A stretch of DNA of 64,000 bases, from contig NZ_SBJL01000004.1 in NCBI RefSeq assembly GCF_004634425.1, positions 62,001-126,000 on the forward strand, read 5' to 3'. Shown here one piece after another: positions 954 through 32,995 of this stretch. Position 1 is the stretch's first letter. Every line of letters starts with the position of its first letter. This DNA comes from Vitreimonas flagellata. Lineage in GTDB: Bacteria; Pseudomonadota; Alphaproteobacteria; Caulobacterales; Aquidulcibacteraceae. A model generated the notes under the pieces. The model was not told where the DNA came from and searched no databases. It saw only the letters and a list, made by a program, of their open reading frames with translations. A program made the translations under genes and the position numbers.

Positions 954-2840
954 TCAGTGCTGGGCGGCGAGCGAGGCCTCAGCGGCGTTGGTCAGCGCCA
1001 GCGCGCCTTCGCCAAGCGGCGTCACCAGACAATCGGGCAACCAGCGCGATTGCGCGAATGCCTTGGCGGCCGCGTCCGCGAATTCGTGCTTCTTCAGCTT
1101 GGCCAGCGCCTTCAGTTTGACGCTTCTCTTGGCCTCCGGCAGATCGGCAAAATCTGAGCCTTCCGCCAAAGCGTCGAGCGCATATTGCTTCGAGGTGCGC
1201 TGCCAGAAGGCGCTGTCGGGCGACCAATGCGCGCTCATGTCGAGCCGGATTGCGGCGGCGATCGCGTCGGCGGAGCGCTGACGTTCGCGGTCCTGAGCGC
1301 TCGCGCCCTCGTGGTGGAGATCGATGGTCTCGGCGACAAGAATTGCGAGGCACGACAGCAGCGTCTCGTCATCGAGGGCCAACGCCTCGATAAAGGTCTC
1401 CGGGAACGTGCGCGCGGAGCGCAGGGTCGCAAAGACCTCGTCATCACCGAAGTCACGTGCGGTGGCGTTGATTTCAGGCCCGACCAGATCGCCCGACCCC
1501 GCGCTCTGCTGCGCGAGCGTGCAGACCAGGAGCGCAAGCGCAACATGTACGTCGCTGGCGACGCCCGCGCGTATAGCGCGAGTGCGCGCCAGCGTGAGGT
1601 CGCGCGTCAGCGCCTTGCTGAGTGACGCGCCGGCGGGGGCGCCTTCGTCCGCATCGTCTTCGCCGCTGTCCTCGCCGGCCTTTGCCTTGCTGCGCAGTTT
1701 ATCGAGCGCCTTCAGATCGGCGCGGCGAATGAGCCCGCGTTGGATCGTCGGCTTGCCGTCACGATCGACGCCCACAATCGCGCCTGCGTGCGCCATCAAA
1801 GCGGGATCGTAAATGCGCGCGGCTTCGGCAATGGCGTCTCGTTCGCCATCGAGCGCCTCGCGCCGATCCCAGAGAGCGTCAGCCTCTGGGCCGTCCTCGA
1901 TGCCTTCGAGTTCGCTGTCGATCCGCTCGATCTCGGCATCGACGGCTGCAAGACGGCGCTTTTCCTTGGCCGTAAGCTTGCGCTCGCCGGGGCGAAGCCG
2001 CTCGGCGGCGAAACCTTCGAGATGGCCGCCGGCGAGATTGAGTTCGGCCCAGCCCCAGCCGTCGGCGAGAAGCGCGTCGCGAAGCGCCTCGGCCTTCTCC
2101 AAGGCGAGACGCTGCAGGATTTCACCGTCCTCAAGGAAGGCGATGGTGTCCTCGAACAGATCCTTCACGATGCGTCCGCCCGCGGCCGTATACGCATCAA
2201 CGCCGACGAAGAGCGCGAGACGATCGCTGAGAGGTGTGCGGCCCTGGGTGAGGGCGCCGCGAACGGCGTGAGCGCTGGTGATTGGCTTGGCCAATCCCTT
2301 GAAGACGCGCTCCTGCGCCTCGTGATCGCCGATGCAGAAGGCGCGCGCGACATCGAGCGTGAGTTCGCCGCGTCGATAAGCGGCGCGAATGCGCGGGCTC
2401 AAATGCGCCAGCGCCAGCCGTTGTTCGACATGGCGGAGTGTCGTACCGAAGCGTTGCGCGACATCCTCCGGCGACTGGCCCGCCGCGATAAGTGCTGCGA
2501 AGGCTTCCACCTCGTCCATGGCGTTCATCTCGACGCGCTGGACGTTCTCCGCCAGCGAGGCTTCGGCGGCGGAAGCGGATGCGACGACCTGACAAGGCGT
2601 AGGCCAGTCCTTTGGGCGTTCGCCTTGGCGAACGAGAAGCTTGAGCGCGGCGTGACGGCGCGCTCCGGCGACGACCGCGAACTTGCCGTCTTCGCGCGCG
2701 GTGACCGTCAGGTTTTGCAGAAGGCCGTGGGCGGCGATCGATGCGGCAAGCGTATCGATGTCGCGTTTGCGCTCGGTGCGGCGGACATTGTCTTCGCTCT
2801 CGACGAGTTTGTTGAGCGGAATGAGTTGAAGTGCGGACAT
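954..2840 (-). CDS. ParB/RepB/Spo0J-family partition-like protein (large form)
   Basis: 628 residues from ATG 2840 (MSALQLIPLNKL). The open frame extends further upstream to 3068, but that part is low-complexity R/A-rich and lacks a ParB match, so it was left out. The N-terminal 110 residues form a ParB N-domain: LNKLVESEDNVRR, then VAGARRHAALK, in place of the usual GERR motif. A helix-turn-helix part follows (QSPEDVAQRFGTTLRHVEQRL), then a long charged C-terminal half with a coiled-coil-like E/D/R-rich stretch. Large ParB-like proteins of this kind commonly sit beside ArdC genes on alphaproteobacterial plasmids and islands, as here. No ParA is present, so a role in segregation is uncertain; a DNA-binding or nuclease role is equally possible. 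Confidence 0.82.
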   Translation of the reverse strand: MSALQLIPLNKLVESEDNVRRTERKRDIDTLAASIAAHGLLQNLTVTAREDGKFAVVAGARRHAALKLLVRQGERPKDWPTPCQVVASASAAEASLAENVQRVEMNAMDEVEAFAALIAAGQSPEDVAQRFGTTLRHVEQRLALAHLSPRIRAAYRRGELTLDVARAFCIGDHEAQERVFKGLAKPITSAHAVRGALTQGRTPLSDRLALFVGVDAYTAAGGRIVKDLFEDTIAFLEDGEILQRLALEKAEALRDALLADGWGWAELNLAGGHLEGFAAERLRPGERKLTAKEKRRLAAVDAEIERIDSELEGIEDGPEADALWDRREALDGERDAIAEAARIYDPALMAHAGAIVGVDRDGKPTIQRGLIRRADLKALDKLRSKAKAGEDSGEDDADEGAPAGASLSKALTRDLTLARTRAIRAGVASDVHVALALLVCTLAQQSAGSGDLVGPEINATARDFGDDEVFATLRSARTFPETFIEALALDDETLLSCLAILVAETIDLHHEGASAQDRERQRSADAIAAAIRLDMSAHWSPDSAFWQRTSKQYALDALAEGSDFADLPEAKRSVKLKALAKLKKHEFADAAAKAFAQSRWLPDCLVTPLGEGALALTNAAEASLAAQH

Positions 2841-3132
2841 GGGCGTTCGAGCCTTTGAAGGGAGCCCCGCGTTGCGGAAGTGCTGCGCGGGATCGCTTGC
2901 GCGACGCGCATCCCGTTCACGCCCGCGCCGTGAGGGGGCCTGGGTCGAGGGCTCGTCGAGACGAGAGCGTGAGCGTCCCTCGACGCAGGGCCCCGGCGCG
3001 GGCAATGCTCGGCGTTGCGCAAGCGCGCCCGCGCGCGAGGCGCGCGCATTGATTTTGGCGAGGCACACTGCTTTTGCTTGCGCTGCACGCCAAAGTTGCT
3101 TTTAGTAGTCGAGACTACAGCGGGAGGATGCG
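2841..3132. other. Divergent intergenic region between parB-like gene and luxR
   Basis: About 290 bases without a supported gene. It holds very GC-rich sequence near 2900-3050 and, close to luxR, an inverted repeat described separately. No RNA gene was recognised. Confidence 0.5.
3105..3118. promoter_or_regulatory. Inverted repeat upstream of luxR (GTAGTC-GA-GACTAC)
   Basis: Perfect 6-base arms with a two-base centre, ending 14 bases before the luxR start and directly before its ribosome binding site. It may be an operator for LuxR itself or another regulator. It differs from the candidate lux box before luxI. Confidence 0.35.
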
Positions 3133-3870
3133 ATGCCTGCTGCCAAGCTGGCGCTCGATTTTATCGACTTCTGCGAGAAGCAGACCGATCCTTCGATGAT
3201 CGAAGATCGCTTTATCGCGACACTGAATGCGCTCGGCTACGAGCACATCGCCTGCGCGTCGCACGTCGATCCGCTGCGACCGCGGCCGGGCACGGTCAGC
3301 ATCGTCAATTATCCCATGGCCTGGCTGCAGCAATATTCGGCCGAGAACTTCGCGTTCATCGATCCGGTGTTTCTCGCCGCGCGCATCATGACCGCGCCAT
3401 TCAACTGGGATGAGTGTATCTCCAAGATGCGCCTCGATCGCGCGCAGAAGCGTGTGCTTGCCGAAGGCGCTGCCTATGGCCTGACCGGGGGCATGACTAT
3501 TCCGCTCCGCTCACCCGATGTCCTCCCCGCATCGTGTTCGCTGGTCGCGGGCGCTGACGGCGTGGAGCCGCTCGATTTGGCGCACACCCTGATGGTCGTC
3601 ATCTATGGACATGGCGCGATGCATAGACGGCTTAATCCCAATGCCTTGGTCGAACCGGTCGTGCTGCCGTCACGCGAGCGCCAGTGCCTGGCGCTTGCAG
3701 GACGGGGCAAGAGCGATTGGGCGATAGGCGAACTCCTGGGCATCAACGCCCGCACCGCCCACAATTCCATCGAGCGCGCCAAGAAGCGCTATGGCGTGTC
3801 GCACCGCGTGCAAGCGGTCGTGCGCGCCGTGTTTGACGGACAGATCATGCTCGACGATTTGTCGAACTAA
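3133..3870 (+). CDS. luxR: LuxR-family quorum-sensing transcriptional regulator
   Basis: 245 residues. The N-terminal autoinducer-binding domain shows the conserved W-Y-DP spacing (WLQQYSAENFAFIDPV) and a following W (FNWDE). The C-terminal quarter is a LuxR-type helix-turn-helix: LPSRERQCLALAGRGKSDWAIGELLGINARTAHNSIERAKKRYGV. Start at ATG 3133 is backed by GGGAGG five bases upstream. It binds an acyl-homoserine lactone and DNA in the cytoplasm. The synthase gene follows 90 bases downstream on the same strand, separated by a lux-box-like palindrome, so the pair is probably a complete cognate circuit. The real targets are not shown by the sequence. Confidence 0.93.
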   Translation: MPAAKLALDFIDFCEKQTDPSMIEDRFIATLNALGYEHIACASHVDPLRPRPGTVSIVNYPMAWLQQYSAENFAFIDPVFLAARIMTAPFNWDECISKMRLDRAQKRVLAEGAAYGLTGGMTIPLRSPDVLPASCSLVAGADGVEPLDLAHTLMVVIYGHGAMHRRLNPNALVEPVVLPSRERQCLALAGRGKSDWAIGELLGINARTAHNSIERAKKRYGVSHRVQAVVRAVFDGQIMLDDLSN

Positions 3871-3888
3871 ATCGATTCGTCGCTTGTC

Positions 3889-3910
3889 AACGGGTCCCAC
3901 GGGACCCGTT
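3889..3910. promoter_or_regulatory. Candidate lux box upstream of luxI
   Basis: AACGGGTCCC-AC-GGGACCCGTT: perfect 10-base arms around a two-base centre. The size and dyad symmetry are those of a lux box. Its centre lies about 61 bases before the luxI ATG; a box at -42.5 would put the transcript start near 3942, just before the Shine-Dalgarno sequence. There is no T-run after it, so a terminator for luxR is less likely. Confidence 0.6.
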
Positions 3911-3960
3911 ACGTCGTTCGCCTCAGAGCGGCACCCTCCGCGCGATTGGTCGGAGGCAAC

Positions 3961-4590
3961 ATGATCTACATCGTCTCGGCGGAAAACAGGCGGCGCTTCT
4001 ATCACTTGCTGACGGAGATGCATCGCCAGCGCAAACAGGTGTTCATCGATCAACTCAAGTGGCGGCTTGAGGAGAGTGCAGGGCTCGAAATCGACGCCTA
4101 TGACAGTGAAGACGCGATCTATCTGATCGAGGCGGCGACGCCGCGAGGAGGGATCAGTGTCTCCGCGCGGCTCCTCCCGACAGATCGTCCGCATTTGTTG
4201 ATCGAACAATTCCGCGATCTCTGCGAAGCGTCGCCGCCTTCCGGTCCCAATGTGTGGGAAGCCACCAGGTTCTGCCCGGCGCCCGATACAGCATCCGGCG
4301 CGCCGCGGCGGCTGATGCTGGGGCGCATCATTGCCGGCATCATGGAGACCGCGCTCCTGTTTGGCATTGACGAGGTGACCTACGTGGCGAGCGCCGCGTT
4401 GGCGCCGATGGCCGAAGAGGCGGGATGGCAGGTGCGCGCGCTGGGGGCGGGACGCGGAAAGGGGCGCGATAAGATCCGAGCTTTCGCCGCGACGATCAAC
4501 GCCGATGGGCTCAGACGCGTGCGTCAGACCTTCAACATCAGCGCGCCATTGACGCGATTTGCGCCGGCCGAGCCGGCGCGTGCGGCCTAA
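3961..4590 (+). CDS. luxI: LuxI-family acyl-homoserine-lactone synthase
   Basis: 209 residues. It makes an acyl-homoserine-lactone signal from S-adenosylmethionine and an acyl carrier. Family residues are visible: the R..VF...W pattern in RQRKQVFIDQLKW, the acidic run EIDAYDSEDA, the ISVSARLLPT strand, and WEATRF with the conserved E and R. ATG 3961 is chosen because CGGAGG sits five bases upstream; a TTG 15 bases earlier would bury this site. The acyl chain made cannot be told. PhyH and GntR genes follow closely and may be co-transcribed. Confidence 0.93.
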   Translation: MIYIVSAENRRRFYHLLTEMHRQRKQVFIDQLKWRLEESAGLEIDAYDSEDAIYLIEAATPRGGISVSARLLPTDRPHLLIEQFRDLCEASPPSGPNVWEATRFCPAPDTASGAPRRLMLGRIIAGIMETALLFGIDEVTYVASAALAPMAEEAGWQVRALGAGRGKGRDKIRAFAATINADGLRRVRQTFNISAPLTRFAPAEPARAA

Positions 4591-4605
4591 GCGGGGAAGA
4601 GCGTA

Positions 4606-5481
4606 ATGACTCTCATCTCACCCACTTCCGACGATACGCTCGCCAGCGATCTCGAAGCGCTGCAGCATGACGGATTTCTCGTTCTCCACGGCTTGCTGAA
4701 CGCCGAGGAATTGAGATCGGTCGCTGACGAATTAGAGCCCTGGCTCCAGCGCACGCCGCGCTGCGAAGGCGACTTCCACGGCTGGTCGACGACACGCGTG
4801 AATGGACTCTTGTCGAAAGCGCCGGCGGCGCAGCGGCTTGCGCTCCATCCGCGCATCCTTGCGTTTGCCGAAGCCGTGCTCGCGCCGGCGTGCGATTGCA
4901 TTCGCCTCAACATGACTCAGGCAATTCGCATTCATCCTGGTCAAAAGGCGCAAGCGCCGCACCGTGATGAGGAGATGTGGCCCGCCGAGCCGAGCGGGCA
5001 GGTGTGGTCGCTCAATGTGATGTGGGCGGTCAGCGACTTCACCGAGGCCAATGGCGCAACAAGGCTTTGGCCCAAGAGCCACGTCAATCGCCTCGGTCGC
5101 TCGCCGGATCCAAGCCAGGCGATCCAGGGCGTCATGCGCGCGGGCTCCGCGCTCATCTATCTTGGCGGTCTGACGCACAGCGGCGGCGCCAACCGATCGG
5201 ATGGCGACCGCACAGGGCTCGTCATCGGCTATTGCGCCGGATGGTTGCGCACCTACGAGGAGCAATTTCTCGCTTATCCCCGAGAGGTTGCGCGTGAATT
5301 TCCAATCGAGCTGCAGCGCCTCATCGGCTATCGCCATCACCGTCCCAATCTCGGGAATTGGGAAGGCCAGGACCCGATCGCGTACCTGGGCGATGATGGC
5401 CCTTGCGGACCGCATCGCGACGCGCTGCCGCCGGCGATCGCCGCTGAACTGAAGGCCGTGATGGCGGCCGCTGACGATTGA
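4606..5481 (+). CDS. Phytanoyl-CoA dioxygenase (PhyH) family Fe(II)/2-oxoglutarate oxygenase
   Basis: 291 residues. The fold is a double-stranded beta helix using Fe(II) and 2-oxoglutarate. The metal triad is probably HRD (in KAQAPHRDEEMW) plus the distal His in GGLTHSGGANR, with the nearby R for 2-oxoglutarate. It begins 15 bases after luxI and ends one base before gntR, so it is most likely in the luxI transcript. From memory, PhyH-like genes next to luxI also occur in Sphingomonadaceae, which suggests a link with the signal or its output. A second possibility, given the lasso genes downstream, is hydroxylation of the peptide. The substrate is unknown. Confidence 0.85.
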   Translation: MTLISPTSDDTLASDLEALQHDGFLVLHGLLNAEELRSVADELEPWLQRTPRCEGDFHGWSTTRVNGLLSKAPAAQRLALHPRILAFAEAVLAPACDCIRLNMTQAIRIHPGQKAQAPHRDEEMWPAEPSGQVWSLNVMWAVSDFTEANGATRLWPKSHVNRLGRSPDPSQAIQGVMRAGSALIYLGGLTHSGGANRSDGDRTGLVIGYCAGWLRTYEEQFLAYPREVAREFPIELQRLIGYRHHRPNLGNWEGQDPIAYLGDDGPCGPHRDALPPAIAAELKAVMAAADD

Positions 5482-5482
5482 T

Positions 5483-6106
5483 ATGTCGCCGGAAGCGACC
5501 AGCGCCGCGCAGCGCGCATACGAGGAAATCAAGGCGCGCGTGCTCGATGGACGCCTACCTGTGCGCACGCGCATTGATATGGAAGCGCTAGCGCGCGAGC
5601 TCGGCGTAAGTTCCATGCCCGTGCGTCAGGCGTTGAGCCTCCTCACCTGGGAGCGGCTCGTTCGGCCGGGAAAGCACTCGGCCTTTGAGGTCGCTTTATG
5701 GTCCGCGACAGAATTGGCGCATCTCTACGAGTGGCGTGGCGCCCTGCTGACGCTCGTGCTGCCGTCGAACGCGGCGGGGTCCGACGTGATGCGCTTAGCC
5801 CGAACCCAGCCTTATGCGCAGGCTGTGTCCAGTGTCATGCGTCTGCTGGAGGACGGCGCCAATTCCAACCTGCGGCGGGCGGCCGCCAATGCGGACGATA
5901 GGCTGCATGCGGCGCGCTTGATTGAGGAAGAAGTCCTGGGCGATGTGCAAGGCGAGTTCGAAACCTTCGTAGGCGCGATCGCCGAGCGATCCCGGCGCAC
6001 AAACACGATCCTCAAATCTTATATCCGCCGCCGGGTGCAGAGCGCAGAAGCGCTGCGTGCGCATGTGGCGATGAAAGCGCTCTCGCAGAATGGCGAGCCG
6101 CGCTGA
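5483..6106 (+). CDS. GntR-family transcriptional regulator
   Basis: 207 residues. The N-terminal winged helix is clear (AYEEIKARVLDGRLPVRTRIDMEALARELGVSSMPVRQALSLLTWERLV). The C-terminal part is all-helical and resembles the FCD effector domain, though the ligand histidines are not obvious. The gene abuts the PhyH gene and stands directly before the lasso precursor promoter region, where two palindromes lie. A local repressor or activator of the lasso genes is the simplest reading. GntR genes are familiar neighbours of alphaproteobacterial lasso clusters. Confidence 0.85.
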   Translation: MSPEATSAAQRAYEEIKARVLDGRLPVRTRIDMEALARELGVSSMPVRQALSLLTWERLVRPGKHSAFEVALWSATELAHLYEWRGALLTLVLPSNAAGSDVMRLARTQPYAQAVSSVMRLLEDGANSNLRRAAANADDRLHAARLIEEEVLGDVQGEFETFVGAIAERSRRTNTILKSYIRRRVQSAEALRAHVAMKALSQNGEPR

Positions 6107-6126
6107 TCACCAAACAGATCTTCATG

Positions 6127-6146
6127 TTGATCAATTCGGTGATCAA
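6127..6146. promoter_or_regulatory. Probable GntR operator (TTGATCA-N6-TGATCAA)
   Basis: Perfect 7-base inverted repeat 21 bases after the gntR stop and about 65 bases before the first precursor start. Size and position suit a dimeric winged-helix regulator. Confidence 0.5.
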
Positions 6147-6170
6147 ACGGAGCGCGCGCATACTCCAGGC

Positions 6171-6186
6171 GGGTGATGGATCACCC
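6171..6186. promoter_or_regulatory. Inverted repeat before lasso precursor 1 (GGGTGAT-GG-ATCACCC)
   Basis: Perfect 7-base arms, ending four bases before the ribosome binding site GGAGAG of the first precursor gene. It could be a second operator or a short 5' leader hairpin that shades the ribosome site. Confidence 0.4.
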
Positions 6187-6201
6187 AATGGAGAGTGAAA
6201 C

Positions 6202-6321
6202 ATGCGCGAAGAGCAAAAGCACGACGACCTGATCGACCTCGGCGCCGCCAGCGAACTGACGCTCGGCGATCCCGGCCCTGATCAAGAAGATCCGGACTTC
6301 TTGACGGAGGAAGTCGCCTGA
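6202..6321 (+). CDS. Lasso peptide precursor 1
   Basis: 39 residues, found by reading the gap between gntR and the B gene. The leader ends in LIDLGAASELTL, with Thr at the penultimate leader position, the mark of lasso precursors. The predicted core is GDPGPDQEDPDFLTEEVA, 18 residues. Gly1 would close a ring onto Glu8 or Asp9, with Phe12/Leu13 as possible plugs. The core has seven acidic and no basic residues, which is unusual. GGAGAG lies six bases before the ATG. The start, the second copy with the same pattern, and the adjacent B, C and isopeptidase genes make the call strong; cleavage and ring sites are inferred. Confidence 0.9.
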   Translation: MREEQKHDDLIDLGAASELTLGDPGPDQEDPDFLTEEVA

Positions 6322-6328
6322 GCGCCGC

Positions 6329-6362
6329 GACTTGAGCGCTCGCCACAACGCGCGCTCAAGTC
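6329..6362 (+). promoter_or_regulatory. Stem-loop between the two precursor genes
   Basis: Perfect 11-base inverted repeat GACTTGAGCGC ... GCGCTCAAGTC with a 12-base loop and no T-run after it. More likely an mRNA-stabilising or partial-termination hairpin than a full terminator. Confidence 0.5.
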
Positions 6363-6391
6363 GTCGTTCAATTCTAGAGCGAGTATCAAAC

Positions 6392-6511
6392 ATGCGGAAC
6401 GATGAACCTTGCACCGATCTCATCGACTTGGGCGCAGCGTCTCAACTGACGCTCGGCGACCCTGGTCCGGATCAGGAAGATCCGGACATGCAGACCGAAG
6501 AGATCGCGTGA
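6392..6511 (+). CDS. Lasso peptide precursor 2
   Basis: 39 residues, a tandem duplicate of the first precursor. The leader end LIDLGAASQLTL again has Thr at -2. The predicted core is GDPGPDQEDPDMQTEEIA. The first 11 core residues, including the whole ring, are identical to copy 1; only positions 12, 13 and 17 differ (F/M, L/Q, V/I), which fall in the loop, plug and tail. The N-terminal ten leader residues have diverged while the recognition part near DLGAAS is kept. No clear Shine-Dalgarno precedes ATG 6392, so translation may be weaker than for copy 1. Confidence 0.9.
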   Translation: MRNDEPCTDLIDLGAASQLTLGDPGPDQEDPDMQTEEIA

Positions 6512-6517
6512 CGCAAC

Positions 6518-6551
6518 GAAGCTCCGCCCAGCGTGAGCGGGGCGGAGCTTC
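6518..6551 (+). promoter_or_regulatory. Stem-loop between precursor 2 and the B gene
   Basis: Perfect 12-base inverted repeat GAAGCTCCGCCC ... GGGCGGAGCTTC with a 10-base loop, 12 bases before the B start. It lacks a U-tract. Such a hairpin can keep precursor mRNA abundant relative to the enzyme genes, a familiar arrangement in lasso operons. Confidence 0.55.
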
Positions 6552-6563
6552 CATTGGTATGCC

Positions 6564-7193
6564 ATGACATTTCATTTCGGACCGGGACCTGACGCATATC
6601 TGGCGTTTGACCAAGGCTTTGCGGTCGTCCTCGATCTTGCGAACAATCGGTACTGGGCGCTGGACGCGGACGCTCTTTCTCGCCCTGAACCAACTCCGGC
6701 CATTGAAGCGCTGCTCAATTGCGGCTCGCTGCGTGCGCTTGCGCCGCCGCAGGCGCAAATCGGCCAGGCTATACGGAGCGCGGCGCGCATCACGCACACG
6801 CCACCATGCAAAGCGCCAACGCTCGATGCGGCGGCTTGGGGGCGTTTTCTCATCGCATGTCTTTGGGCCCGCTGGGTTGTATCCACCGGTCGTTTGGATG
6901 TGGCCAGACGGACGCTCGTGCGACTCCGTTCAAGGCAGGCGTCAACGCAGGACGCCGGTGAGGCGGTCGCACGGTTCGAGCAAATGCGGCCGCTATGGCC
7001 TGGCGACCAAGTGTGCCTATTCGACAGCCTGACGTTAGCGCGCTTCCTTCTGAGCGAGGGGCGCGATGCGAAGATCGTCTTCGGCGTACGCACGCGGCCA
7101 TTCTCCGCCCATTGTTGGGTGGAGTCTGAACAAGAGGTGCTGCTCGATCTCACTGGCCAGTTCGCGTCCTATGTTGTGATTTGCAGGCTCTGA
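6564..7193 (+). CDS. Lasso peptide biosynthesis B protein (RRE plus transglutaminase-like leader peptidase)
   Basis: 209 residues. Residues 1-60 look like the PqqD-type recognition domain that holds the leader (LAFDQGFAVVLDLANNRYWAL). Residues 90-209 match the B2 protease: Cys151 in CLFDSL, His183 in AHCWVE and Asp195 in LLDLTG are the likely catalytic triad. It would cut the leader after the Thr-Leu pair and hand the core to the C protein. The two domains are fused in one chain, as usual in Proteobacteria. It is preceded by a hairpin and followed four bases later by the C gene. Confidence 0.87.
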   Translation: MTFHFGPGPDAYLAFDQGFAVVLDLANNRYWALDADALSRPEPTPAIEALLNCGSLRALAPPQAQIGQAIRSAARITHTPPCKAPTLDAAAWGRFLIACLWARWVVSTGRLDVARRTLVRLRSRQASTQDAGEAVARFEQMRPLWPGDQVCLFDSLTLARFLLSEGRDAKIVFGVRTRPFSAHCWVESEQEVLLDLTGQFASYVVICRL

Positions 7194-7197
7194 GGTC

Positions 7198-9027
7198 ATG
7201 CGCGATTTTCTGGTTCTGCGCTGGCGACCGATCGACAAGGAACGAGAAACTAAGCTTCGCGCGCACGCTGCCCTGGCCGAGCAGCACGGCTATGAAAGCC
7301 TGCTCGACTGGCGTGGCATGTTGATCATGGCCCGACCCAACGGCTTGGATTTCTCGCCTGTGCTTCTGCCGAACGGCCGTGGTGTTCTATTTGGAATGGC
7401 CTTTCGTCGGCAGGCCCCATCTGAAGGACGCATTCAATCTGTAGAGGCGCAAGACGCGGCGAATTGGGCTGAGAGCGGCGGCGAAAAGCTCATCCGCGAT
7501 ATCTGGGGGGCCTATGCGGCGTTCCTTGTCGATAAGGGGCGCGATCACCTTCACGTCGTGCCGTCCCCAACAGGGGCCTTTCCGCTGTTTTCTGCCCCGA
7601 TAAGCGGTGGATACGCCGTCTTCGCCAGCGCTCAAGTTTTCGCGGACATTGGCGGCGCTCTGAACATAGATGCGCCCGAACTCGATGCGTTTCTGCGCTA
7701 TCCGAACCGGTTCACCAGCGCGACCGGATTTCGCGATGTACGTAGGATCTTGCCGGGGACCTGCCTTACGTTGCCCAGAGAAGGGCAGAGCACATGCTCA
7801 CTCTGGCGCCCGCCTCATGCTGACGCCGCGCGCGTCGACACAGCGCGCAACGCCGAGGACTTACGTCGCGCATTGGAGGATGTTTGCGGCGCATTCGCGA
7901 AGGCACGCCCCAATATCTTGCACCGGCTGTCGGGCGGTCTCGATTCAAGCGTCGTCCTCTCGATGCTGAAGCGCACCGCCTCGCCGGATGCTCTGGTCGC
8001 GGTGCATGATTACGGCATCGGTCCAGGCGAAGGCGACGAGCGCGCCTATGCTCGCTTGGTGGCGCGGCATCTCGGGGTGAAGCTGATTGAGAACCACATC
8101 GATCCGCGAGACGTCGATTACACGCGGATGCTGGATATGCCGCTTGCCGCGGCGCCAGCGCCAACCCTGCTGACATGGGCCAATGCACGTTCCTCCGTTC
8201 TGAGCGCGGGACTGGAGGACGCGCTCGTGACGTCAGGCCAGGGCGGCGACCATGTTTTTTATCGTGGCCGGGGCTCTTGCGGTCCTGCAGATGCATGGCG
8301 CGATGGCTCAGGATTGAGCGGCTTCTGGCGCGAGGCCATGACAAGCGCCCGCAGATCACGCGTGTCGGTGTGGAGCATTTTGCCTGAGTCTGTGCGCACA
8401 GGCCCTCTGCACGGGGCGTTCGATCTCCCGCGGCATCTGGCCCGCGAAGGTCAAGCCAAGGCGGAAGCGCGTTTGACCGCGCGCGAACATGGGGCCTTGC
8501 CTTGGCTTGAAGGCTATCGGAAACGCCATCCTGGCGCTGTGCATCGCGCACTATTGTTGGCGGATGCGCAAACCTATTTCGGACCTTCGCAGCTCGCCGA
8601 TTCATTCCCATTGGCGCCGCCTGTGCTCTTTGAGCCCGTGATTGAGGCGCTGTTTCGTATACCGAGCTATGCAATGAACGCCGATGGTCTGGATCGCGGG
8701 CTGGTGCGCAGTGCCTTCGCCAACGAACTGCCGACAGAGATCGTCTATCGAAGGACCAAGGGGCAAACCACGCGATTTGTATCGGCGATATTGCGGCGCA
8801 ACCGAGACTTTCTTGTCGATGTCTTGCGTCGGGGGCGGCTGGCGGAGCGGGGACTTATCGACGGCGAGGCCGTAGTAGACATGATTAGCGCCAGCGCCCG
8901 ACCAGATGCGACGCAACCCAGCGCGCTGACACCACTGATATGCGCTGAGCTTTGGCTCCGCAGTGTGGAGCGCGCTGGACGAGAAGCCAAGAAGGTGGAT
9001 GCGCCCACGACCGCGTCAACGACGTGA
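7198..9027 (+). CDS. Lasso peptide macrolactam synthetase (asparagine-synthase-like C protein)
   Basis: 609 residues. It should adenylate the side-chain carboxyl of Glu8 or Asp9 and join it to the amino group of Gly1. The ATP-pyrophosphatase signature SGGLDSS begins at residue 245; the N-terminal part resembles a glutaminase fold but lacks a catalytic N-terminal Cys, as in other lasso C proteins. A second synthetase signature region is YRRTKGQTTRF near residue 520. It follows the B gene by four bases. Its last 12 bases overlap the convergent isopeptidase gene. Confidence 0.9.
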   Translation: MRDFLVLRWRPIDKERETKLRAHAALAEQHGYESLLDWRGMLIMARPNGLDFSPVLLPNGRGVLFGMAFRRQAPSEGRIQSVEAQDAANWAESGGEKLIRDIWGAYAAFLVDKGRDHLHVVPSPTGAFPLFSAPISGGYAVFASAQVFADIGGALNIDAPELDAFLRYPNRFTSATGFRDVRRILPGTCLTLPREGQSTCSLWRPPHADAARVDTARNAEDLRRALEDVCGAFAKARPNILHRLSGGLDSSVVLSMLKRTASPDALVAVHDYGIGPGEGDERAYARLVARHLGVKLIENHIDPRDVDYTRMLDMPLAAAPAPTLLTWANARSSVLSAGLEDALVTSGQGGDHVFYRGRGSCGPADAWRDGSGLSGFWREAMTSARRSRVSVWSILPESVRTGPLHGAFDLPRHLAREGQAKAEARLTAREHGALPWLEGYRKRHPGAVHRALLLADAQTYFGPSQLADSFPLAPPVLFEPVIEALFRIPSYAMNADGLDRGLVRSAFANELPTEIVYRRTKGQTTRFVSAILRRNRDFLVDVLRRGRLAERGLIDGEAVVDMISASARPDATQPSALTPLICAELWLRSVERAGREAKKVDAPTTASTT

Positions 9028-11070
9028 TGCCTGCGCCTGCAACGCGCGCCAGCGGCCAATGCGCGCCGGATCGGCGTCATCTATGACCTCCACGTCACGC
9101 AGCCAGAAATCCAGCCAGGCCAGTGCGCGCATCTGGGCGGCGAGCAATTGGCGCGGTCGATGTTTCACATGATAGGCGTCGGGATAGATGAACATCTCGA
9201 TTGCCCGATCGTGCTCGCGCATGCGTCGGTAAAACGGGAATGCGGGCAGGGCCTCCCGGTCGGCGAGCTGCAACAGGATAGGGGTGTGAATCTGCTCGAC
9301 GTGATTGACGGCGGGCTTGTCGCGCCAATGTGATGCCCACGGATCTTGGGTGTCAGGCCATGGGCCTGCGCGATCGCGCAGGCGCCGCGCGCTATTGGTG
9401 AATTCCTCGCTGACCAGCGAATAGGACATCGGATCGAGTGGGGGCGAGGAAATCACCGCGGCCGCGAAGCGATCTGAATCCTGCAGCGCCCAATAGGCGG
9501 TTTCCGCGCCATCACTGAGACCCGTCAGACCGATGCGTGCGGGGTCGATCGATGCGTGCGTCAGCGCCATGTCGACGAGCGCGTAGAGGGCCGACAATTT
9601 GCTCCCTCGTTCCAGCCCTTCCAGCTCCTCCTGCACCAGCGCGGCGGCATTGGATTGGGTCGTGCGGTCGGCGACATGCTGTGGGCGCTCGAAGCTCAGA
9701 ACGAAGTACCCGCGCTCCGCCAGCGCATGGATCGGTATTTCGCCGCCGACGCCGCCGCGCAGAAACCCGCGAGAGCGATATTGAACGATCACCATCGGAT
9801 AGGAGCGACGCGTATCATAGCGCAACGGATAGACGAGATGGGCGAAAGTGGGGTTGCCGAAGCGGTCGGTTGCATCGAGCCGGTCCACGTGTGGCATGCG
9901 TCGATCCCGCCATGCGGGGTTGGGGTCGTACAGCGTCCGCGATCGACCGGAGTGCGGATTGATGGAGACGATCGTACGCGGCGAAAGCGTCGCTTCGCGC
10001 AAACACATCAAGTGCGCTGCGTACACGCACTCAACCAGCAATTCCTCCGATGAACGCACGCGGCGCAGAGCGTTAGAGCGAGGATCCCATTCGTAGAGGG
10101 CTGTTGTGGTGCGCGTCGGAGCCTCTACGCGTAGGAAGAGCACGCGTCCGCGCGCAAGCCAGGGACCTGAGATCTCGCCTGTACATTCAGCGTGCGCGCA
10201 CACTCTTTCGACGCCCGCGGCGTCTGTGAAGACGAGCTGCAATGGGGCGCGGCTGCCCAGGGCCGGCAGAGCTCGAATGAGCGCGACCTCGCCGGCTTCG
10301 CTCGGAGCGCGTCGTAGCGAGGCGCGGCTGGGCGCGCCTGCGAAAGCGCCGGAGAGCTGATCGTGTGTCGTCTCGTCGGCAACGGAGGTCGCGCCGCTCT
10401 CGACATCAACCAGCGTATACCATCTTCCAAGGCGTGGATCATGCTCAGGCATCAGGCCCATCAATGGTTCGAGCCGCGCGTCCAGGAGAAAGCCGTCTCT
10501 TCTAGCGACGGCAGCAGCGGCCTCGATGCTAGCGCGTCCGGCGCCGCTCTCAATCAGCAGATGCGTGTCATCGATCCAGGCAAAGCGATGAACCTCGCCC
10601 GGGCCATCGAACAAGCGCCTGACCGAGTCCCCGTTCACCGAAGCGACGTCCAAGAAGACCCGATCGCCGGCGCCGCCGAAGAGATAGGCGATGCGGCGCC
10701 CGTCCGGCGACCACACAGCGCGGCGCAGAAGTGCTGCGCCCTGGCGGCGTCCATTCGCTGATGAGTGATGTATAAAGCCGCCAGCATCGGCGAGCGCCCT
10801 GGTCTCGCCCGTGCGCGTGTCGATGAGTATCAGGGTGTGGGTATAGGCGTCCGCCTCAAGATCGAGCGATCGTTCGATCACGGCAAGGTAGCGTCCATCG
10901 GGCGACAACGTTAGACCGCCATCGGCGCCGCCAAGCTCCCTGATGTCGAGATTGGCCGCCACGGCGTTTGGGATTGCGCTAAGGTCCCAAACCTGGGCGT
11001 ACGCAGGAGCCGCGGACATCCAGGCAAAGGCGAGAGCGCTGATCGTTGGCCCAGTCCAGCGGCCACGCAT
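9016..11070 (-). CDS. Lasso peptide isopeptidase (S9 prolyl-oligopeptidase type, AtxE-like)
   Basis: 684 residues from ATG 11070; a TTG two codons earlier was rejected because the ATG overlaps the TonB receptor stop as TAATG. An N-terminal signal peptide (ALAFAWMSAAPAYAQ) predicts periplasmic location. A beta-propeller-like part follows, then the hydrolase domain with nucleophile Ser519 in GLSDGAE and a probable His near residue 633 in AYHVKH. In alphaproteobacterial lasso loci such enzymes open the isopeptide bond of the locus's own lasso peptide. Position at the end of the TonB operon and opposite the precursor operon supports this over a general dipeptidyl peptidase. Confidence 0.85.
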   Translation of the reverse strand: MRGRWTGPTISALAFAWMSAAPAYAQVWDLSAIPNAVAANLDIRELGGADGGLTLSPDGRYLAVIERSLDLEADAYTHTLILIDTRTGETRALADAGGFIHHSSANGRRQGAALLRRAVWSPDGRRIAYLFGGAGDRVFLDVASVNGDSVRRLFDGPGEVHRFAWIDDTHLLIESGAGRASIEAAAAVARRDGFLLDARLEPLMGLMPEHDPRLGRWYTLVDVESGATSVADETTHDQLSGAFAGAPSRASLRRAPSEAGEVALIRALPALGSRAPLQLVFTDAAGVERVCAHAECTGEISGPWLARGRVLFLRVEAPTRTTTALYEWDPRSNALRRVRSSEELLVECVYAAHLMCLREATLSPRTIVSINPHSGRSRTLYDPNPAWRDRRMPHVDRLDATDRFGNPTFAHLVYPLRYDTRRSYPMVIVQYRSRGFLRGGVGGEIPIHALAERGYFVLSFERPQHVADRTTQSNAAALVQEELEGLERGSKLSALYALVDMALTHASIDPARIGLTGLSDGAETAYWALQDSDRFAAAVISSPPLDPMSYSLVSEEFTNSARRLRDRAGPWPDTQDPWASHWRDKPAVNHVEQIHTPILLQLADREALPAFPFYRRMREHDRAIEMFIYPDAYHVKHRPRQLLAAQMRALAWLDFWLRDVEVIDDADPARIGRWRALQAQASRR

Positions 11071-14009
11071 TACCAACGCCGCCGTACTTCGAGGGACACA
11101 AACCGGCCGAGCGGTGAGGCGTTTCGATTATCGTAAGCAAAGCCCTCGGACGAGTTCGCGAACGGCGGCTCTTCGTCGAAAAGATTGGTGATGTTGAAGG
11201 CCAGCTCTGTGCGGGGGCTCTCCGCGGCTTCACCGTTGGACAACGAAACGCCGAGACGGGCGTCGAAGGTGGTCCACGCATCGATCTCTCGATCTGGGTT
11301 CGAGATGGTATCGTCGTATCCGCCGAGATAGTTCGCGAACCCACTGGCGCGCCAAGGACCAGCGGACCATGAGAGTCCGGCGCGGAGGCGCCAATCAATG
11401 GGATTGTAGATGGTGTTGAGCAATTGCTCGCCCGGGGCGCTCGGGTTGGAGCGGCGATCGAATTGCAGCAGATGGCTTGCACTTAATGAGGCGTCAAACC
11501 TGCCGAGGTCTGTCTCAAAGGCGTAGGTTGCGCTCGCGTCAATTCCGCGAACACGCAGACTTGAGAGATTGGTGACGCGACCGTCCCAAATGAGTTCGAC
11601 CCCGTCTGCTGGCGTCACGCCGCCCAAACGATCAAGGATGGCGAGATAGCTCGCAAGCGTCGCCGCGTCGGGATCGCGAATGAGCACCGCGCTATAGGGC
11701 GCTGGATTGGCGATGGCGCTGAGCACATCGCCGGGGACCGAGATACGGTTGGCGAAATCGATGTCGAAATATGTGGCTGAGAAGAATGCCCCCGCCAGCC
11801 AATCTGGCCGATATTCGAAGCCTGCCGTCCAACTCTCGGCTTCCTCGGGCTCAAGATCAGGATTGCCGCCCGCGATTGAGAGCAGTCCGGTGGAACCGCC
11901 ATCGGCAAGCGGATCTTGCGCGGGCGTGAGCGTCAGATAGCTGCCGCCGATCGACGACAGGGTTTGGTCAAAGCGCGGCGCCTTGAAGGAAAGTCCCCAT
12001 GTCGCGCGCACACGCAACGCCTCCAGCAGCTGCCAATCCAAACCCACTTTGGGCGTAAGTGCGCGCCCATAATCCTCTGAATACTCCTCTCGCACTGAGG
12101 TCGAGAGGTCGATGGTCCGTGAGAGCGGCGCGGCGATCTCGACAAACCAAGCGTCCGTGTCGCGCTCACCGGGGGCCGGGGTGGCGACGATCGTCGGGAC
12201 CCCCGCGTTCGAATAGGTGATGCGATCCACGCGAAACGATTCCGTGCGACGCTCGAGCCCCAACGCCATGCGCACGGCTCCCGCTGGCAAATCGAAAAGC
12301 GGCCCGTCCGCTTTGAGCGAGAGCGCCTGGAGGCGAGAATCGTTGTCGGTGATTTGGTGGCGCAGAATGGCGTCCATGATGTGAGCGTTGTCGCCGCCAT
12401 CGCCAAAGGGATTGAACGCCGTGGCTGTGTTGGACGAGGCGAGCGCAATATTGAGCGCCGCTGTGTCGATGGAATTGCCGAAGCGCACGTGATCGCGATG
12501 GCGTCCATAGGAATAAGACGCCTCGCCGCGCCAATCGAAAGCAAGATCAGCCTCGATACCCAGGACGCCAGAGAATGTGCGCGCGCGCGTCTCATAGGTT
12601 GTGGGCCCAGCGTCGCCGACGAAGGAATAGGCGATCACCATGTTGCCTTGCCCGGGAAAGAGATTGTTGGCGACGCGGAAGGCGTTGGTCTGTGGGACCG
12701 TGATGTTCGACATGATCGCGCTGTTGCGCATGAAGGCGTCGCGCTCGCTTGCGAACATGTCGGCGAAGACATCAATTCGACGGGTCAAGCTTTGCCGGCC
12801 GGAGAAGAAGAGGGAGTACGCGTCTTGTTCGGGCAAGACGTCCGTCGCCTCGCGCGTGTTCTGATAGTTCACCACGCCGGCGAGGAGGTCTGCTTGCGTA
12901 AGGCCGATGCCATCTTGGCCGTCGGGGATGGCAAGCACGACACTGGTGGCGCCGATGCGGGTGATGTTGCCCGGGCTAGAGGTGGCGCGTGAGAAATTGT
13001 CACCGCCCAAGGATCTGAGATCGCTGTTGGCGGCGAAGGCGCGATCGGATGACGCGAGCGCATTGCGAGTACGATATTCATAACCGAGCACGGCGTGGCC
13101 GCCGGCCCATTGCCAGCCGAATGTATGGCTGAAATTGAACCCCTCGGCGCCGCCCTGCGCCGCGCCAAGACGCAGTGCGGATTCACCGCCTTCAAAATCG
13201 GTGCGGGTGATTATGTTGACAACACCGCCGACGGCGTCGCTGCCATAAGTGGCTGAAGCGCCGTCCGCGAGCACCTCAATGCGCTGGACGGCCGCGAGCG
13301 GGATCGCACTCGCATCAACGAAATTGCCGAACCCTGCGGGTGCCAAACGGCGACCATTCACCAATGTCAGCGTCGCGTCAGAACCCAAGCCGCGTAGGTC
13401 GATGGCCGACCCGAAGGAAAGATTGTTGTTGGCGGAGTTGAGCTGCGTCGCCTCGCTCTGGCTGCCAGGGAAATTCTGCGGCAGCGTGCGTAACACTTCA
13501 AAGATCGTGCTTTGGCCGGTTTCCTCGATTGTTGATCGATCAAGCGTGAGCAGATTGGCGCCTGCGGGTACGGCGCCCCGGATGCGTGTGCCGGTCACGA
13601 CAATTTCTTCGTCGTTCTCAGTCGCCGCGTACTGGGGGCGGGCGGGCGGCTCCACTTGGACGATGCGGTCGCCGGCGATCTCGATCCGAGGCGCGCCAGA
13701 CGGCAACATCTGCATCAACGCCGCTTCTGGCGTCCTGCGGCCGCTGAGCGGTCGCGACGTGAATCCCGACACGGCGTCCTCTGAGAAGAGGATTTGCAGG
13801 TTTGATTGTTCGGCGAAACGGACGAGCGCCGACGACAAGGGTTGCGCCGGAATATCGTACTCGCGCTCCGCACGCGCGGTGCGCGCGGCCGCGTCAGCAG
13901 ATTGCGCGTGAGCAGGACCGCTCAACGCGAAGCTTGAAACAGAAGCCAGCGCCACGGCCAGCAGTGAGCGTACGCCATCGCGGCGCATCCGCGCCGAAAA
14001 ATCCACCAT
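11070..14009 (-). CDS. TonB-dependent outer-membrane receptor with N-terminal STN signalling domain
   Basis: 979 residues. Signal peptide at 1-36 (ALSGPAHAQS). Residues 48-100 form a secretin/TonB short N-terminal domain (YDIPAQPLSSALVRFAEQSNLQILFS), found in transducers that signal to FecR. The TonB-box-like EEIVVTGTRI and plug follow, then a long barrel ending in VSLEVRRRW with a C-terminal aromatic. The ECF sigma and FecR genes just upstream make a cell-surface signalling trio. With the isopeptidase next in the operon, the likely ligand is the lasso peptide, re-imported and then opened. That ligand is inference. Confidence 0.9.
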   Translation of the reverse strand: MVDFSARMRRDGVRSLLAVALASVSSFALSGPAHAQSADAAARTARAEREYDIPAQPLSSALVRFAEQSNLQILFSEDAVSGFTSRPLSGRRTPEAALMQMLPSGAPRIEIAGDRIVQVEPPARPQYAATENDEEIVVTGTRIRGAVPAGANLLTLDRSTIEETGQSTIFEVLRTLPQNFPGSQSEATQLNSANNNLSFGSAIDLRGLGSDATLTLVNGRRLAPAGFGNFVDASAIPLAAVQRIEVLADGASATYGSDAVGGVVNIITRTDFEGGESALRLGAAQGGAEGFNFSHTFGWQWAGGHAVLGYEYRTRNALASSDRAFAANSDLRSLGGDNFSRATSSPGNITRIGATSVVLAIPDGQDGIGLTQADLLAGVVNYQNTREATDVLPEQDAYSLFFSGRQSLTRRIDVFADMFASERDAFMRNSAIMSNITVPQTNAFRVANNLFPGQGNMVIAYSFVGDAGPTTYETRARTFSGVLGIEADLAFDWRGEASYSYGRHRDHVRFGNSIDTAALNIALASSNTATAFNPFGDGGDNAHIMDAILRHQITDNDSRLQALSLKADGPLFDLPAGAVRMALGLERRTESFRVDRITYSNAGVPTIVATPAPGERDTDAWFVEIAAPLSRTIDLSTSVREEYSEDYGRALTPKVGLDWQLLEALRVRATWGLSFKAPRFDQTLSSIGGSYLTLTPAQDPLADGGSTGLLSIAGGNPDLEPEEAESWTAGFEYRPDWLAGAFFSATYFDIDFANRISVPGDVLSAIANPAPYSAVLIRDPDAATLASYLAILDRLGGVTPADGVELIWDGRVTNLSSLRVRGIDASATYAFETDLGRFDASLSASHLLQFDRRSNPSAPGEQLLNTIYNPIDWRLRAGLSWSAGPWRASGFANYLGGYDDTISNPDREIDAWTTFDARLGVSLSNGEAAESPRTELAFNITNLFDEEPPFANSSEGFAYDNRNASPLGRFVSLEVRRRW

Positions 14010-14112: not shown

Positions 14113-15120
14113 CTAAAGCGTGGCCGTCGAACTCAGCAGGATCTCGCCATCACGCTGTTCAGTGTTGATGGCGAGGTTGTTGCGGAGGAGCTGAAGGAAC
14201 GCGTCAAGATCGTCCGCACGAACGAGGCCGCCGACGCGCAGGTCGGCGAGCGCTGGATCTGCGAAGACAAAGCGTACGCCGCTTTGCCGCGTAACGTCCG
14301 CGACCGCCTCGGAGAGCGGCGTGTTGTCGAAGGCGAGCATGCCCTCGCGCCATAGCGTGCGGCGCGCAAGTTGTTCCGCGGTGGAGGCGTCAACGGCCAC
14401 GTCTTCGCGGCCAATGACGATTTCGCTATTCACGCCCGCCGCAACTCGGGAGGTTTGTCCGATCCATGTGCGCCGAGAGGCAAGCGCGCCGTCGGTTAGC
14501 AAAGCGACGCGCGCGCCTTCTGGAAGCAGCTTCACCAGGATTTCGCCGCCGGCGGCCTCGATTTCTCCTGATGGCGTGGCGATCGAAAACACGCCGGCGT
14601 TGCTCTCGGCGATCGTAAAGAGCGCTTCGCCTGCCAGAAGCCGCGCTTCGCGCCGATCATCACGTATGCGCGCCTCGAGCCGCGAACTCGCGTTCAGTAA
14701 AACCCGCGTGCCATCGGCCAGATCCACTTCGCGCTGTTCGCCGACGCCGGTTTCAAAAGTTTCCGCCGCCGCCGGGTTCACCGCAACGTAGCCAACCAAG
14801 CAGAGTCCGATGCCCGCGACCCCCGCCCCGAGCAGCAACGCGCGACGGTCCGGCGCGGATGCTTCAGAGCCCTGGTGCGGCGTCGCTCCCGCGCCGGCCT
14901 CCAGCAACGCGACAATGTCGGGATAAATTTTGAGCTTTTGCAGGCCGTCGAGTTCGCCCCAAGCCCGGCTGGCCAGCAGGAACGCCGGCCGGTGCGCATC
15001 AGAGCGGGCGATCCAGCGCTTAAAGCGCGCCGCGGCAGCGGCGTCGAAAAGCTCACTATCGATCAGCACCACCCAGCGGGCGGCCTCGTCAGCGATCCTT
15101 TCGCTTCGTCTCCATCTCAT
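14113..15120 (-). CDS. fecR: FecR-type anti-sigma / sigma regulator
   Basis: 335 residues from ATG 15120 (MRWRRSERIADEAARWVVLIDS), whose N-terminus is the usual DUF4880 cytoplasmic motif; upstream in-frame sequence is only the shadow of the sigma gene. One transmembrane segment lies near residues 95-115 (ALLLGAGVAGIGLCLVGYVAV). The periplasmic FecR domain follows (VGEQREVDLADGTRVLLNASS), and the C-terminal part should contact the STN domain of the receptor. The gene overlaps the sigma gene by 32 bases, so the two are translationally coupled. Confidence 0.88.
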   Translation of the reverse strand: MRWRRSERIADEAARWVVLIDSELFDAAAAARFKRWIARSDAHRPAFLLASRAWGELDGLQKLKIYPDIVALLEAGAGATPHQGSEASAPDRRALLLGAGVAGIGLCLVGYVAVNPAAAETFETGVGEQREVDLADGTRVLLNASSRLEARIRDDRREARLLAGEALFTIAESNAGVFSIATPSGEIEAAGGEILVKLLPEGARVALLTDGALASRRTWIGQTSRVAAGVNSEIVIGREDVAVDASTAEQLARRTLWREGMLAFDNTPLSEAVADVTRQSGVRFVFADPALADLRVGGLVRADDLDAFLQLLRNNLAINTEQRDGEILLSSTATL

Positions 15121-15664: not shown

Positions 15665-16022
15665 GGCATGCCTCCCGAAGCTCAATGAGACGGGCCACCA
15701 GCTGATCCAGCTGGCTGACATGGAAGCTCTCGATCAGACCCGGAGAATTCGGCGGCTCACCCTGCTCATAGACCACCGCACCCCAGATGAAGTCACCCTC
15801 GGAGACCATTGTTGCGAGGGCGGTTTGATCTTTGGGCGCGGCGCGTTCGACGCAGCGAATGACGGCCAAACGAGGAGTGTTCAGAGCGATGGCCAGATCG
15901 GTGGTCTGCTCGGAGTCACTGACACGTGCGATCACGTTCAGCCCCATCGCGCCGAAAGCTGTTTCTAGCGCGTTGGCTGCGGGCGTGGTCGCCAGTGTGT
16001 GTGATCCAGCGGCGTTCAACAA
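15651..16022 (-). CDS. Unknown small protein upstream of the sigma gene
   Basis: Up to 123 residues with a TTG start; ATG 15947 would give 98 residues, and neither start has a clear ribosome site. No family recognised. It is soluble, with a compact alternating hydrophobic pattern (LAIALNTPRLAVIRCVERAAPKDQTALATMV) and no signal peptide. Its stop overlaps the sigma start by 14 bases, so it is probably co-transcribed with sigma, fecR, receptor and isopeptidase. It is divergent from an XRE regulator across a 17-base palindrome. Confidence 0.55.
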   Translation of the reverse strand: MLNAAGSHTLATTPAANALETAFGAMGLNVIARVSDSEQTTDLAIALNTPRLAVIRCVERAAPKDQTALATMVSEGDFIWGAVVYEQGEPPNSPGLIESFHVSQLDQLVARLIELREACREAG

Positions 16023-30178: not shown

Positions 30179-30241
30179 ACGCTTCCGATCCAATTTGCCT
30201 CTTTCTGCATGCGCATCACCACGCGTGCAGGGGCCGAATTC

Positions 30242-32983: not shown

Positions 32984-32995
32984 GAGGGGAAGAGC

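Follow-up and report, generated by a model that had tools for sequence, protein, structure and literature searches.

The 64-kb stretch of DNA analysed here (the window) carries two neighbouring plus-strand genes for 39-residue lasso peptide precursors, A1 (6202-6321; leader MREEQKHDDLIDLGAASELTL, predicted core GDPGPDQEDPDFLTEEVA) and A2 (6392-6511; leader MRNDEPCTDLIDLGAASQLTL, predicted core GDPGPDQEDPDMQTEEIA). The original prediction had placed a lasso peptide pair at these positions, and both genes were found there with the leader ends it gave, DLGAASELTL in A1 and DLGAASQLTL in A2; the ATG start of A2 at 6392 is internal to a longer, TTG-started frame. The Pfam Subterisin model (PF24178, cut-off 27 bits) matched A1 with 34.7 bits and A2 with 30.7 bits, while the NCBIfam benenodin model (NF033522, cut-off 33 bits) matched A1 with 38.3 bits and A2, below the cut-off, with 29.1 bits. 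Because family models detect both genes, their earlier description as unannotatable was wrong.

Genes for B, C and an isopeptidase adjoin the precursors, as had been proposed, and the family models for precursor, B and isopeptidase all exceed their cut-offs. B (6564-7193, plus strand) is a leader peptidase of the Transglut_core3/lasso_biosyn_B2 type (PF13471, 63.2 bits; NF033537, 67.8 bits against a cut-off of 33), and C (7198-9027, plus strand) resembles the asparagine-synthetase-like lactam cyclases (PF00733, 95.5 bits). C scored under both NCBIfam lasso-cyclase cut-offs (NF033561, 138 of 300 bits; NF033535, 41 of 525 bits) and was assigned as the cyclase by its position and fold family. A perfect hairpin with a 12-bp stem, its arms checked in the sequence, lies between A2 and B (6518-6551, plus strand) and is possibly a transcript stabiliser or attenuator. 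A short hairpin also often stands just 5' of the A1 start (6150-6201 and related loci) with differing arm sequences; most of these stems were singly no better than shuffles, and it was dropped as a candidate element. On the minus strand follow a lasso peptide isopeptidase of the AtxE2 family (9016-11076; NF033523, 539.5 bits, cut-off 400), which aligned to AtxE2 (5txc) at E 9.6e-78 including the GLSDG and HVK stretches, a TonB-dependent receptor (11070-14009; PF00593, PF07715) presumed to be the lasso importer, with a weak match to an STN signalling domain (PF07660 at E 0.11), a FecR-like anti-sigma factor (14113-15306; PF04773, 55.6 bits) and an ECF-type sigma factor (15089-15721; PF08281, PF04542). 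The usual order of an isopeptidase cluster, with isopeptidase, GntR, TonB receptor, FecR and sigma factor, is thus present.

The two cores have 15 of 18 residues in common and differ at positions 12, 13 and 17 only. Across core codons 1-11 the genes show five synonymous differences and no amino-acid-changing one, which looks like purifying selection on the predicted ring with part of the thread shifted. Both precursors read LTL before and GDPGPDQED after the predicted cut, with Thr at -2, Gly at core position 1 and an acidic residue within positions 7-9. Positions 8 and 9 are both acidic, so the ring could be closed from either residue. Among 55 cores from 31 loci (38 distinct cores, near-identical loci from different genomes still being counted), chosen by a pattern that fixes the Thr and not the acidic residue at 8 or 9, all 55 have D or E at one of these two positions. 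Only four of the 55 (both window cores, L047 and L095-A1) have seven acidic residues, and the two window cores alone combine this with the absence of basic residues, in agreement with the composition first reported for each. That report had also read the pair as a fixed ring with a tuned thread. For the window pair this held, with three differing positions and all of the first nine residues identical; for the family it did not, since the other 23 of 24 compared pairs, several of which are near-identical copies of one another, share two to six of the nine. An identical ring was seen in the window pair alone, so the pattern is a feature of this pair and not of its family.

Two precursors were present at 24 of the 31 related loci, and a second one was found additionally at L039, L042 and L045; at L047, L050, L077 and L108 a second precursor was not found, leaving one each. 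At one locus (L048, the same as L104, G008 C16), the predicted cores of two precursor candidates start with Ala (AIGNTGVEPNGQPLYFK) and Asp (DSGNAHREMNGQPLIWL), with Gly1 replaced and Thr at -2 and Glu at 8 kept in each. A stretch of the core was looked for in open-access papers and did not turn up, and the precursor was absent at E<=1e-4 from the 29 other genomes of the genus. The window cores are new members of a known lasso peptide type.

Upstream of the precursors lies a block that the earlier reading had overlooked, together with two further cassettes in the genome and the integrative element described below; what stood of that reading was a very acidic lasso peptide pair whose two members share a fixed ring and differ in the thread. 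The block comprises a LuxR-type autoinducer receptor (3133-3870; PF03472, 83 bits; PF00196, 33.2 bits), a LuxI-type AHL synthase (3946-4590; PF00765, 84.8 bits; the true start is perhaps an internal ATG at 3961), a PhyH-like Fe/2-oxoglutarate oxygenase (4606-5481; PF05721, 92.4 bits) and a GntR-type regulator (5483-6106; PF00392, 42.7 bits), all on the plus strand and separated by 15 nt (luxI-phyH), 1 nt (phyH-gntR) and 95 nt (gntR-A1). In NCBIfam, TraR and TraI were the best matches of LuxR and LuxI, far below their cut-offs (49.8 of 250 and 67.8 of 250 bits). PhyH keeps the HxD motif and the second His in an alignment with AndA. Between gntR and A1 stands an operator-like element, GATCTTCATGTTGATCAATTCGGTGATCA (6117-6145, plus strand), whose pattern, derived from these same loci, gave a single match in the window and none in 100 shuffles; similar stretches occur in L037, L076, L094 and L095. 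More than one LuxR-type match was seen 5' of luxI at L044, L046, L049, L050, L051 and L052, which recalls the double luxR of sphingomonads.

A lux-box-like dyad, AACGGGTCCCACGGGACCCGTT, precedes luxI (3889-3910, plus strand; 9 of 9 arm matches, reached in 0 of 200 shuffles). When the 3.9-Mb home genome was searched with the dyad pattern, which was built from these same loci, allowing up to three mismatches, three sites were found and none with the reversed control: one before the window luxI, one 77 nt before the gene of a TraG coupling protein, and one with two mismatches (51154-51175, plus strand) at the start of a minus-strand ORF of 145 amino acids (50718-51155). A box shared by the synthase gene and the transfer operon is thus present, as judged by sequence alone. 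The 145-residue product, hydrophobic by eye and without a Pfam match at E<=0.001, is probably a membrane protein, and our guess is an entry-exclusion or other transfer-related one; its 62% homolog in G009 (C2:244208, L127) has a box about 20 nt upstream. Four further genomes (G007, G009, G019 and G027) were searched, having been chosen since a luxI gap in each shows the dyad. Boxes were found before TraG genes with trb homologs downstream in G009 and G019, and before a TraG-like gene fragment in G027, which has another about 190 nt before the fecR match of a lasso cassette and a further three-mismatch site at which no gene was recognised; G007 showed the luxI site alone, on a contig of 54 kb there. 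The reversed pattern at three mismatches gave 0-2 matches per strand (G007, 1; G019, 2; G027, 1), so that lone three-mismatch sites carry no weight.

The box occurs at one luxI per genome only. In the home genome it is absent from the luxI genes of the remaining two cassettes (at L005 the luxR-luxI gap is just 24 nt, and L101 has no clear dyad), as it is from further LuxI genes of G009 and G019, and the dyad reached p<=0.05 against shuffles in under half of the tested loci, being strong for the window and some others. A looser lux-box pattern gave one match elsewhere and an equal number per strand in the control, and was dropped. No lux box was seen directly 5' of A1, which means that any LuxR control of the lasso genes would be indirect at best.

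The whole window (C4:62001-126000) lies between two exact 51-bp repeats, at C4:57461 and C4:145970-146020, that comprise the last 45 nt of a tRNA-Val gene and six more; they are 88,509 bp apart and delimit an element of about 88.5 kb. ARAGORN called no tRNA at the right copy, and a phage-type integrase lies just inside the right end. Divergent from luxR is a mobile-element gene for a ParB-like protein (954-3068, minus strand; PF02195, 34 bits; PF17762, 30.8 bits), and left of it are genes for a Toprim protein, an SSB-like protein, a TraF-type peptidase and a marginal relaxase match (PF03432, 24.4 bits against a cut-off of 24.6, E 3.7e-5; G009 and G019 have homologs in the corresponding position), followed by the tRNA-Val gene. 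A T4SS operon right of the window (L119) comprises T4CP, TrbB-, TrbC-, VirB3-, TrbE-, TrbL-, VirB8-, CagX- and TrbI-type genes. Direct repeats at a tRNA gene, an integrase, a coupling protein and a T4SS are all found, as in an integrative conjugative element (ICE). The same layout of putative relaxase, TraF, ParB, luxR, luxI, phyH, gntR and lasso genes plus traG-trb is shared by G019 and G009, and the G009 element also adjoins tRNA-Val; its right-end repeat was not found in C2:153000-191500. In the home genome, the L005 cassette is 111 kb away from the closest gene for a coupling protein, and the contig of the third cassette has none. The window element also holds genes for respiratory nitrate reductase alpha and beta subunits beside an MFS transporter (30209-38241), NnrS (21338-22516) and MoeA (23932-25230), which are putative respiratory cargo of the ICE.

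Thirty isopeptidase loci were counted in the 30 genomes of the Terricaulis-like genus (isopeptidase model E<=1e-60, LuxI model E<=1e-6). At 21 of them, a LuxI belonging to the locus lies no more than 10 kb away; three lack it and six are cut by contig ends. The three loci without LuxI are a partial gene in G005, G008 C7, and the decayed cassette at G009 C3:1088713, for which the closest LuxI, at a distance of 6.8 kb, is part of the neighbouring cassette; a thirty-first isopeptidase locus, in a genome of another family of the order (G052), scored below the cut-off, and LuxI is missing there. The home genome has three isopeptidases and three LuxI, paired in three cassettes: the window's, L005 on another contig with the same gene order, and L101, with different core pairs. 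The benenodin model at E<=0.01 found precursors in 19 of 61 genomes (the window's own and 60 relatives), all but one of them in the window's genus; most of these matches are below the curated cut-off, which was exceeded in only 3 of the 61 genomes. A class-wide survey at E<=1e-80 found the isopeptidase in two of 289 genomes, a number too small to give a frequency: the window's own, and G074 (L114), which shows no LuxR, LuxI or PhyH match nearby.

A scan by PhyH alignment yielded 44 loci from Hyphomonadaceae (one titled Terricaulis sp.), Steroidobacter, Povalibacter, Sphingosinicella and other records, many of them MAG contigs, of which 41 have a LuxI match and 26 both B and C. Genes at these loci were assigned by tblastn from just two query sets, so that divergent copies of B or C may have escaped. 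At L038, L053 and L068, luxR-luxI-phyH is present with no B or C match in the 10 kb downstream; at L099 and L114, the lasso back end is present and LuxRI matches are absent. In five loci from distant proteobacteria (L065, L066, L067, L071 and L072), luxR-luxI-phyH is accompanied by B and C matches about 1.5-7 kb from phyH. One of them, L066, is Povalibacter uvarum DSM 26723, with the precursor candidate MNEELMLVDLGDATEETK/GKVGPERDSFQLPDIEPLG; as it has a strain number, this organism may be in culture. A PhyH relative was also found on 42 plasmid records, 32 of them typed as conjugative. Three of four plasmids inspected carry luxR-luxI-phyH, with virB adjacent in one and other conjugation-type genes near in two; the displayed stretch of the four holds no annotated lasso genes.

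The front and the lasso back end have evolved as two blocks. L005, L058, L060 and L083 were compared with L055, L057, L091, L093 and L056, which have another back end (L056 stops before B), and ParB, TraF, LuxR, LuxI and PhyH were 83-100% identical wherever the loci have them. Between the L005 and L055 types, LuxR, LuxI and PhyH are 90-99% identical and GntR 64-67%, whereas B, C, isopeptidase and receptor are 28-48% identical (a receptor value of 87-89% at L091 comes from a neighbouring copy and was set aside). At the DNA level, identity to L005 stays at 83-99% from a point inside parB (from traF at L091, where parB is cut) until some 200 nt short of the phyH end; it then drops to 73-77%, as far as the first half of gntR, and beyond that to 38-64%. 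L083 and L093 (G008 C18 and C12) are contigs that both start at an identical point inside phyH, as expected if near-identical fronts with differing back ends broke the assembly.

Protein distances gave the same division. Over 25 loci, correlations were 0.41-0.83 among LuxR, LuxI, PhyH and GntR, 0.49-0.71 among B, C, isopeptidase and TonB receptor, and -0.02 to 0.25 between the blocks; over 19 loci made non-redundant at 80% identity of C, they were 0.37-0.79, 0.56-0.80 and -0.13 to 0.29. Several loci of L037-L080 coincide with loci numbered L081-L105, and the correlation and core sets each include a single copy of such duplicates. LuxR distances, taken from the single LuxR nearest LuxI, correlated at 0.54-0.83 with LuxI, PhyH and both GntR halves and at 0.08-0.16 with the back genes; PhyH distances correlated at 0.83 with LuxR, 0.68 with LuxI, 0.17 with B and 0.22 with C. 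By partial correlation, GntR grouped with the front block and the receptor with the back block (0 of 2000 permutations in either case), the front mean including a distorted LuxR at L044, L046, L049, L051 and L052, where two neighbouring LuxR were merged. These separate blocks indicate that quorum front and lasso back end were swapped largely as units. Comparison of L005 with L055 (gntR about 75% identical in the first half, about 50% in the second) had suggested that the effector half of GntR varies with the peptide type. This was rejected: over 25 loci, the C-terminal half gave partial correlations of -0.05 with the back and 0.70 with the front, whose mean again included the distorted LuxR at those five loci. 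In G009, a type-II cassette adjoins a decayed type-I cassette, L102 (C3:1084000-1103000, 1781-9193), which retains long receptor and isopeptidase matches, whereas C is largely missing and the precursors, B and the front are gone; from its gene content, L102 is a putative remnant for uptake alone, next to a cassette of a different type.

We consider the most probable explanation, at about 0.7, to be that the AHL circuit of an ICE co-controls the lasso peptides and transfer. In a growing ICE-bearing population, LuxI would produce an AHL, perhaps shaped by PhyH, and LuxR with its AHL would bind the dyad at 3889-3910 and turn on the luxI-phyH-gntR operon, while the same box outside the window would turn on the traG-trb conjugation operon. 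GntR from the former operon would then act at the 6117-6145 element to gate the lasso genes. B is predicted to cut the leader before Gly, after Leu at -1 with Thr at -2, and C to join Gly1 to Glu8 or Asp9 in a ring; the products would be two threaded peptides of 18 residues, with calculated [M+H]+ values of 1912.808 and 1925.771 and a net charge of about -7. The peptides would leave the cell, the TonB receptor would take them up and the isopeptidase would open them; receptor, FecR and sigma factor could report that peptide is present. An AHL-shaping role for PhyH is suggested because PhyH tracks LuxR and LuxI and not the peptide genes, and it may be comparable to that of a third gene beside luxI in Mesorhizobium, for which shaping of the AHL is described in part of PMC10470506.

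Bacteriocins are commonly under quorum control, and it is possible, though we regard it as unlikely, that the peptides form a narrow-range bacteriocin with which ICE carriers kill element-free kin, the isopeptidase being an immunity factor. B, C, receptor and isopeptidase do diverge jointly, and L102 in G009 has the receptor and isopeptidase without synthesis, as an immune remnant would. However, a net charge of -7 is unusual among antimicrobial lassos, and the receptor of a producer fits uptake or sensing at least equally. The role of isopeptidase-linked lassos is, moreover, called enigmatic in a passage of PMC9266682.

Another explanation, which we hold to be rather improbable, is that an ordinary isopeptidase-type cluster happens to lie beside a conjugation quorum circuit, GntR alone controlling the peptides and LuxRI transfer only. 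A GntR before the precursor belongs to the constant layout of isopeptidase clusters given in the pertinent part of PMC9266682, plasmids carry LuxR-LuxI-PhyH without annotated lasso genes, front and back blocks evolve apart, and A1 is not preceded by a lux box. Yet the linkage was kept at 21 of 24 informative loci of the genus despite back-end exchange, gntR begins 1 nt after phyH and its divergence tracks the front block, and the five distant loci L065, L066, L067, L071 and L072 also link B and C to phyH.

The lasso pair might also be the element's identity signal, each ICE type having its own secreted peptides, matched receptor and matched isopeptidase; this is speculative and we doubt it. 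If it were true, quorum-induced donors would distinguish carriers of the same element among their neighbours from non-carriers, back-end exchange behind a constant front would create new identities, remnants with receptor and isopeptidase would be listeners, and a second private channel would exist alongside the AHL. ICEBs1, in which a peptide holds back transfer, follows a comparable logic.

Tailoring of the lasso peptides by PhyH, through hydroxylation of Asp or Pro in the acidic core in the manner of CanE on canucin A, was judged distinctly unlikely. The cores are Asp- and Pro-rich, PhyH keeps the HxD motif and second His, and CanE is described in a section of PMC9266682 as an Fe/2-oxoglutarate lasso hydroxylase that acts on the precursor. 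PhyH nevertheless accompanies LuxR and LuxI instead of the peptide genes: it stands with LuxI where lasso genes were not detected, including in sphingomonads (portions of PMC4288048 and PMC3704786), a near-same PhyH (90-95% identical) serves two unrelated core types, and its distances track LuxR and LuxI and not B or C. Finally, there is next to no chance that both ORFs are chance or decayed frames: six-frame lists commonly contain short ORFs, but family-model matches, a conserved leader, the five synonymous and no changing differences, and precursors at the same place in relatives mean that chance alone does not explain the two 39-codon ORFs.

Isopeptidase-linked lasso peptides have no settled function according to the relevant part of PMC9266682. 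Here, a link between their clusters and an AHL circuit is seen across a genus; in G000, G009 and G019 it extends to a mobile element's transfer system. This arrangement suggests a testable job for the peptide class and conditions in which the peptides and their effect could be sought, namely AHL, cell density and the presence of the element in neighbours. Exchange of the back end behind a near-constant front also provides natural matched pairs for the recognition of peptides by receptor and isopeptidase.

Several known systems resemble parts of the window. In the TraR/TraI system of the Ti plasmid, a box precedes both the synthase gene and the transfer operon, as is predicted here from the sequence; the window proteins are far below the TraR/TraI cut-offs and belong to an integrative element with a lasso cluster. 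The sphingomonad-type LuxRI-PhyH has phyH immediately after luxI and adjoins conjugation genes, as set out in parts of PMC4288048 and PMC3704786. The window differs from it in its single luxR (some related loci have two), in having lasso genes and not virB next, and in a T4SS about 64 kb off with a box of its own. The canucin A cluster likewise contains an Fe/2-oxoglutarate oxygenase gene (CanE, in the portion of PMC9266682 concerned), whereas the oxygenase of the window accompanies LuxR and LuxI and not the peptide genes. Metanodin, from a soil metagenome (Steroidobacterales), shares with the window a proteobacterial cluster with B, C and isopeptidase, and its ring begins with Asn, unlike that of the window; the words lux, quorum, regulator and GntR are all absent from the available text of PMC12670498. 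No report linking a lasso peptide, an AHL circuit and an ICE was found in the open-access literature, covering titles and the starts of abstracts (for some searches the best 20 of 39, 15 of 542 or 10 of 646) and word searches within PMC12670498, PMC13352647, PMC9266682, PMC11006600 and PMC4235733.

The closest relatives are the astexin-2/3, benenodin, subterisin, sphingopyxin and caulosegnin clusters, with which the window has in common the precursor family, B, C, a GntR before the precursors, the isopeptidase, TonB receptor, FecR and sigma factor. Several precursors per cluster are also typical of isopeptidase-type clusters. GntR, TonB receptor and the sigma/anti-sigma pair form part of their constant layout, as laid out in an excerpt of PMC9266682. 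The window differs from these clusters in the LuxR-LuxI-PhyH genes joined in front, in its location on an ICE and in its new, extremely acidic cores, and its relatives differ in that the lasso back end is swapped behind a near-identical quorum front; what is new here is that a predicted quorum circuit, a transfer system and a lasso peptide pair are linked on one element.
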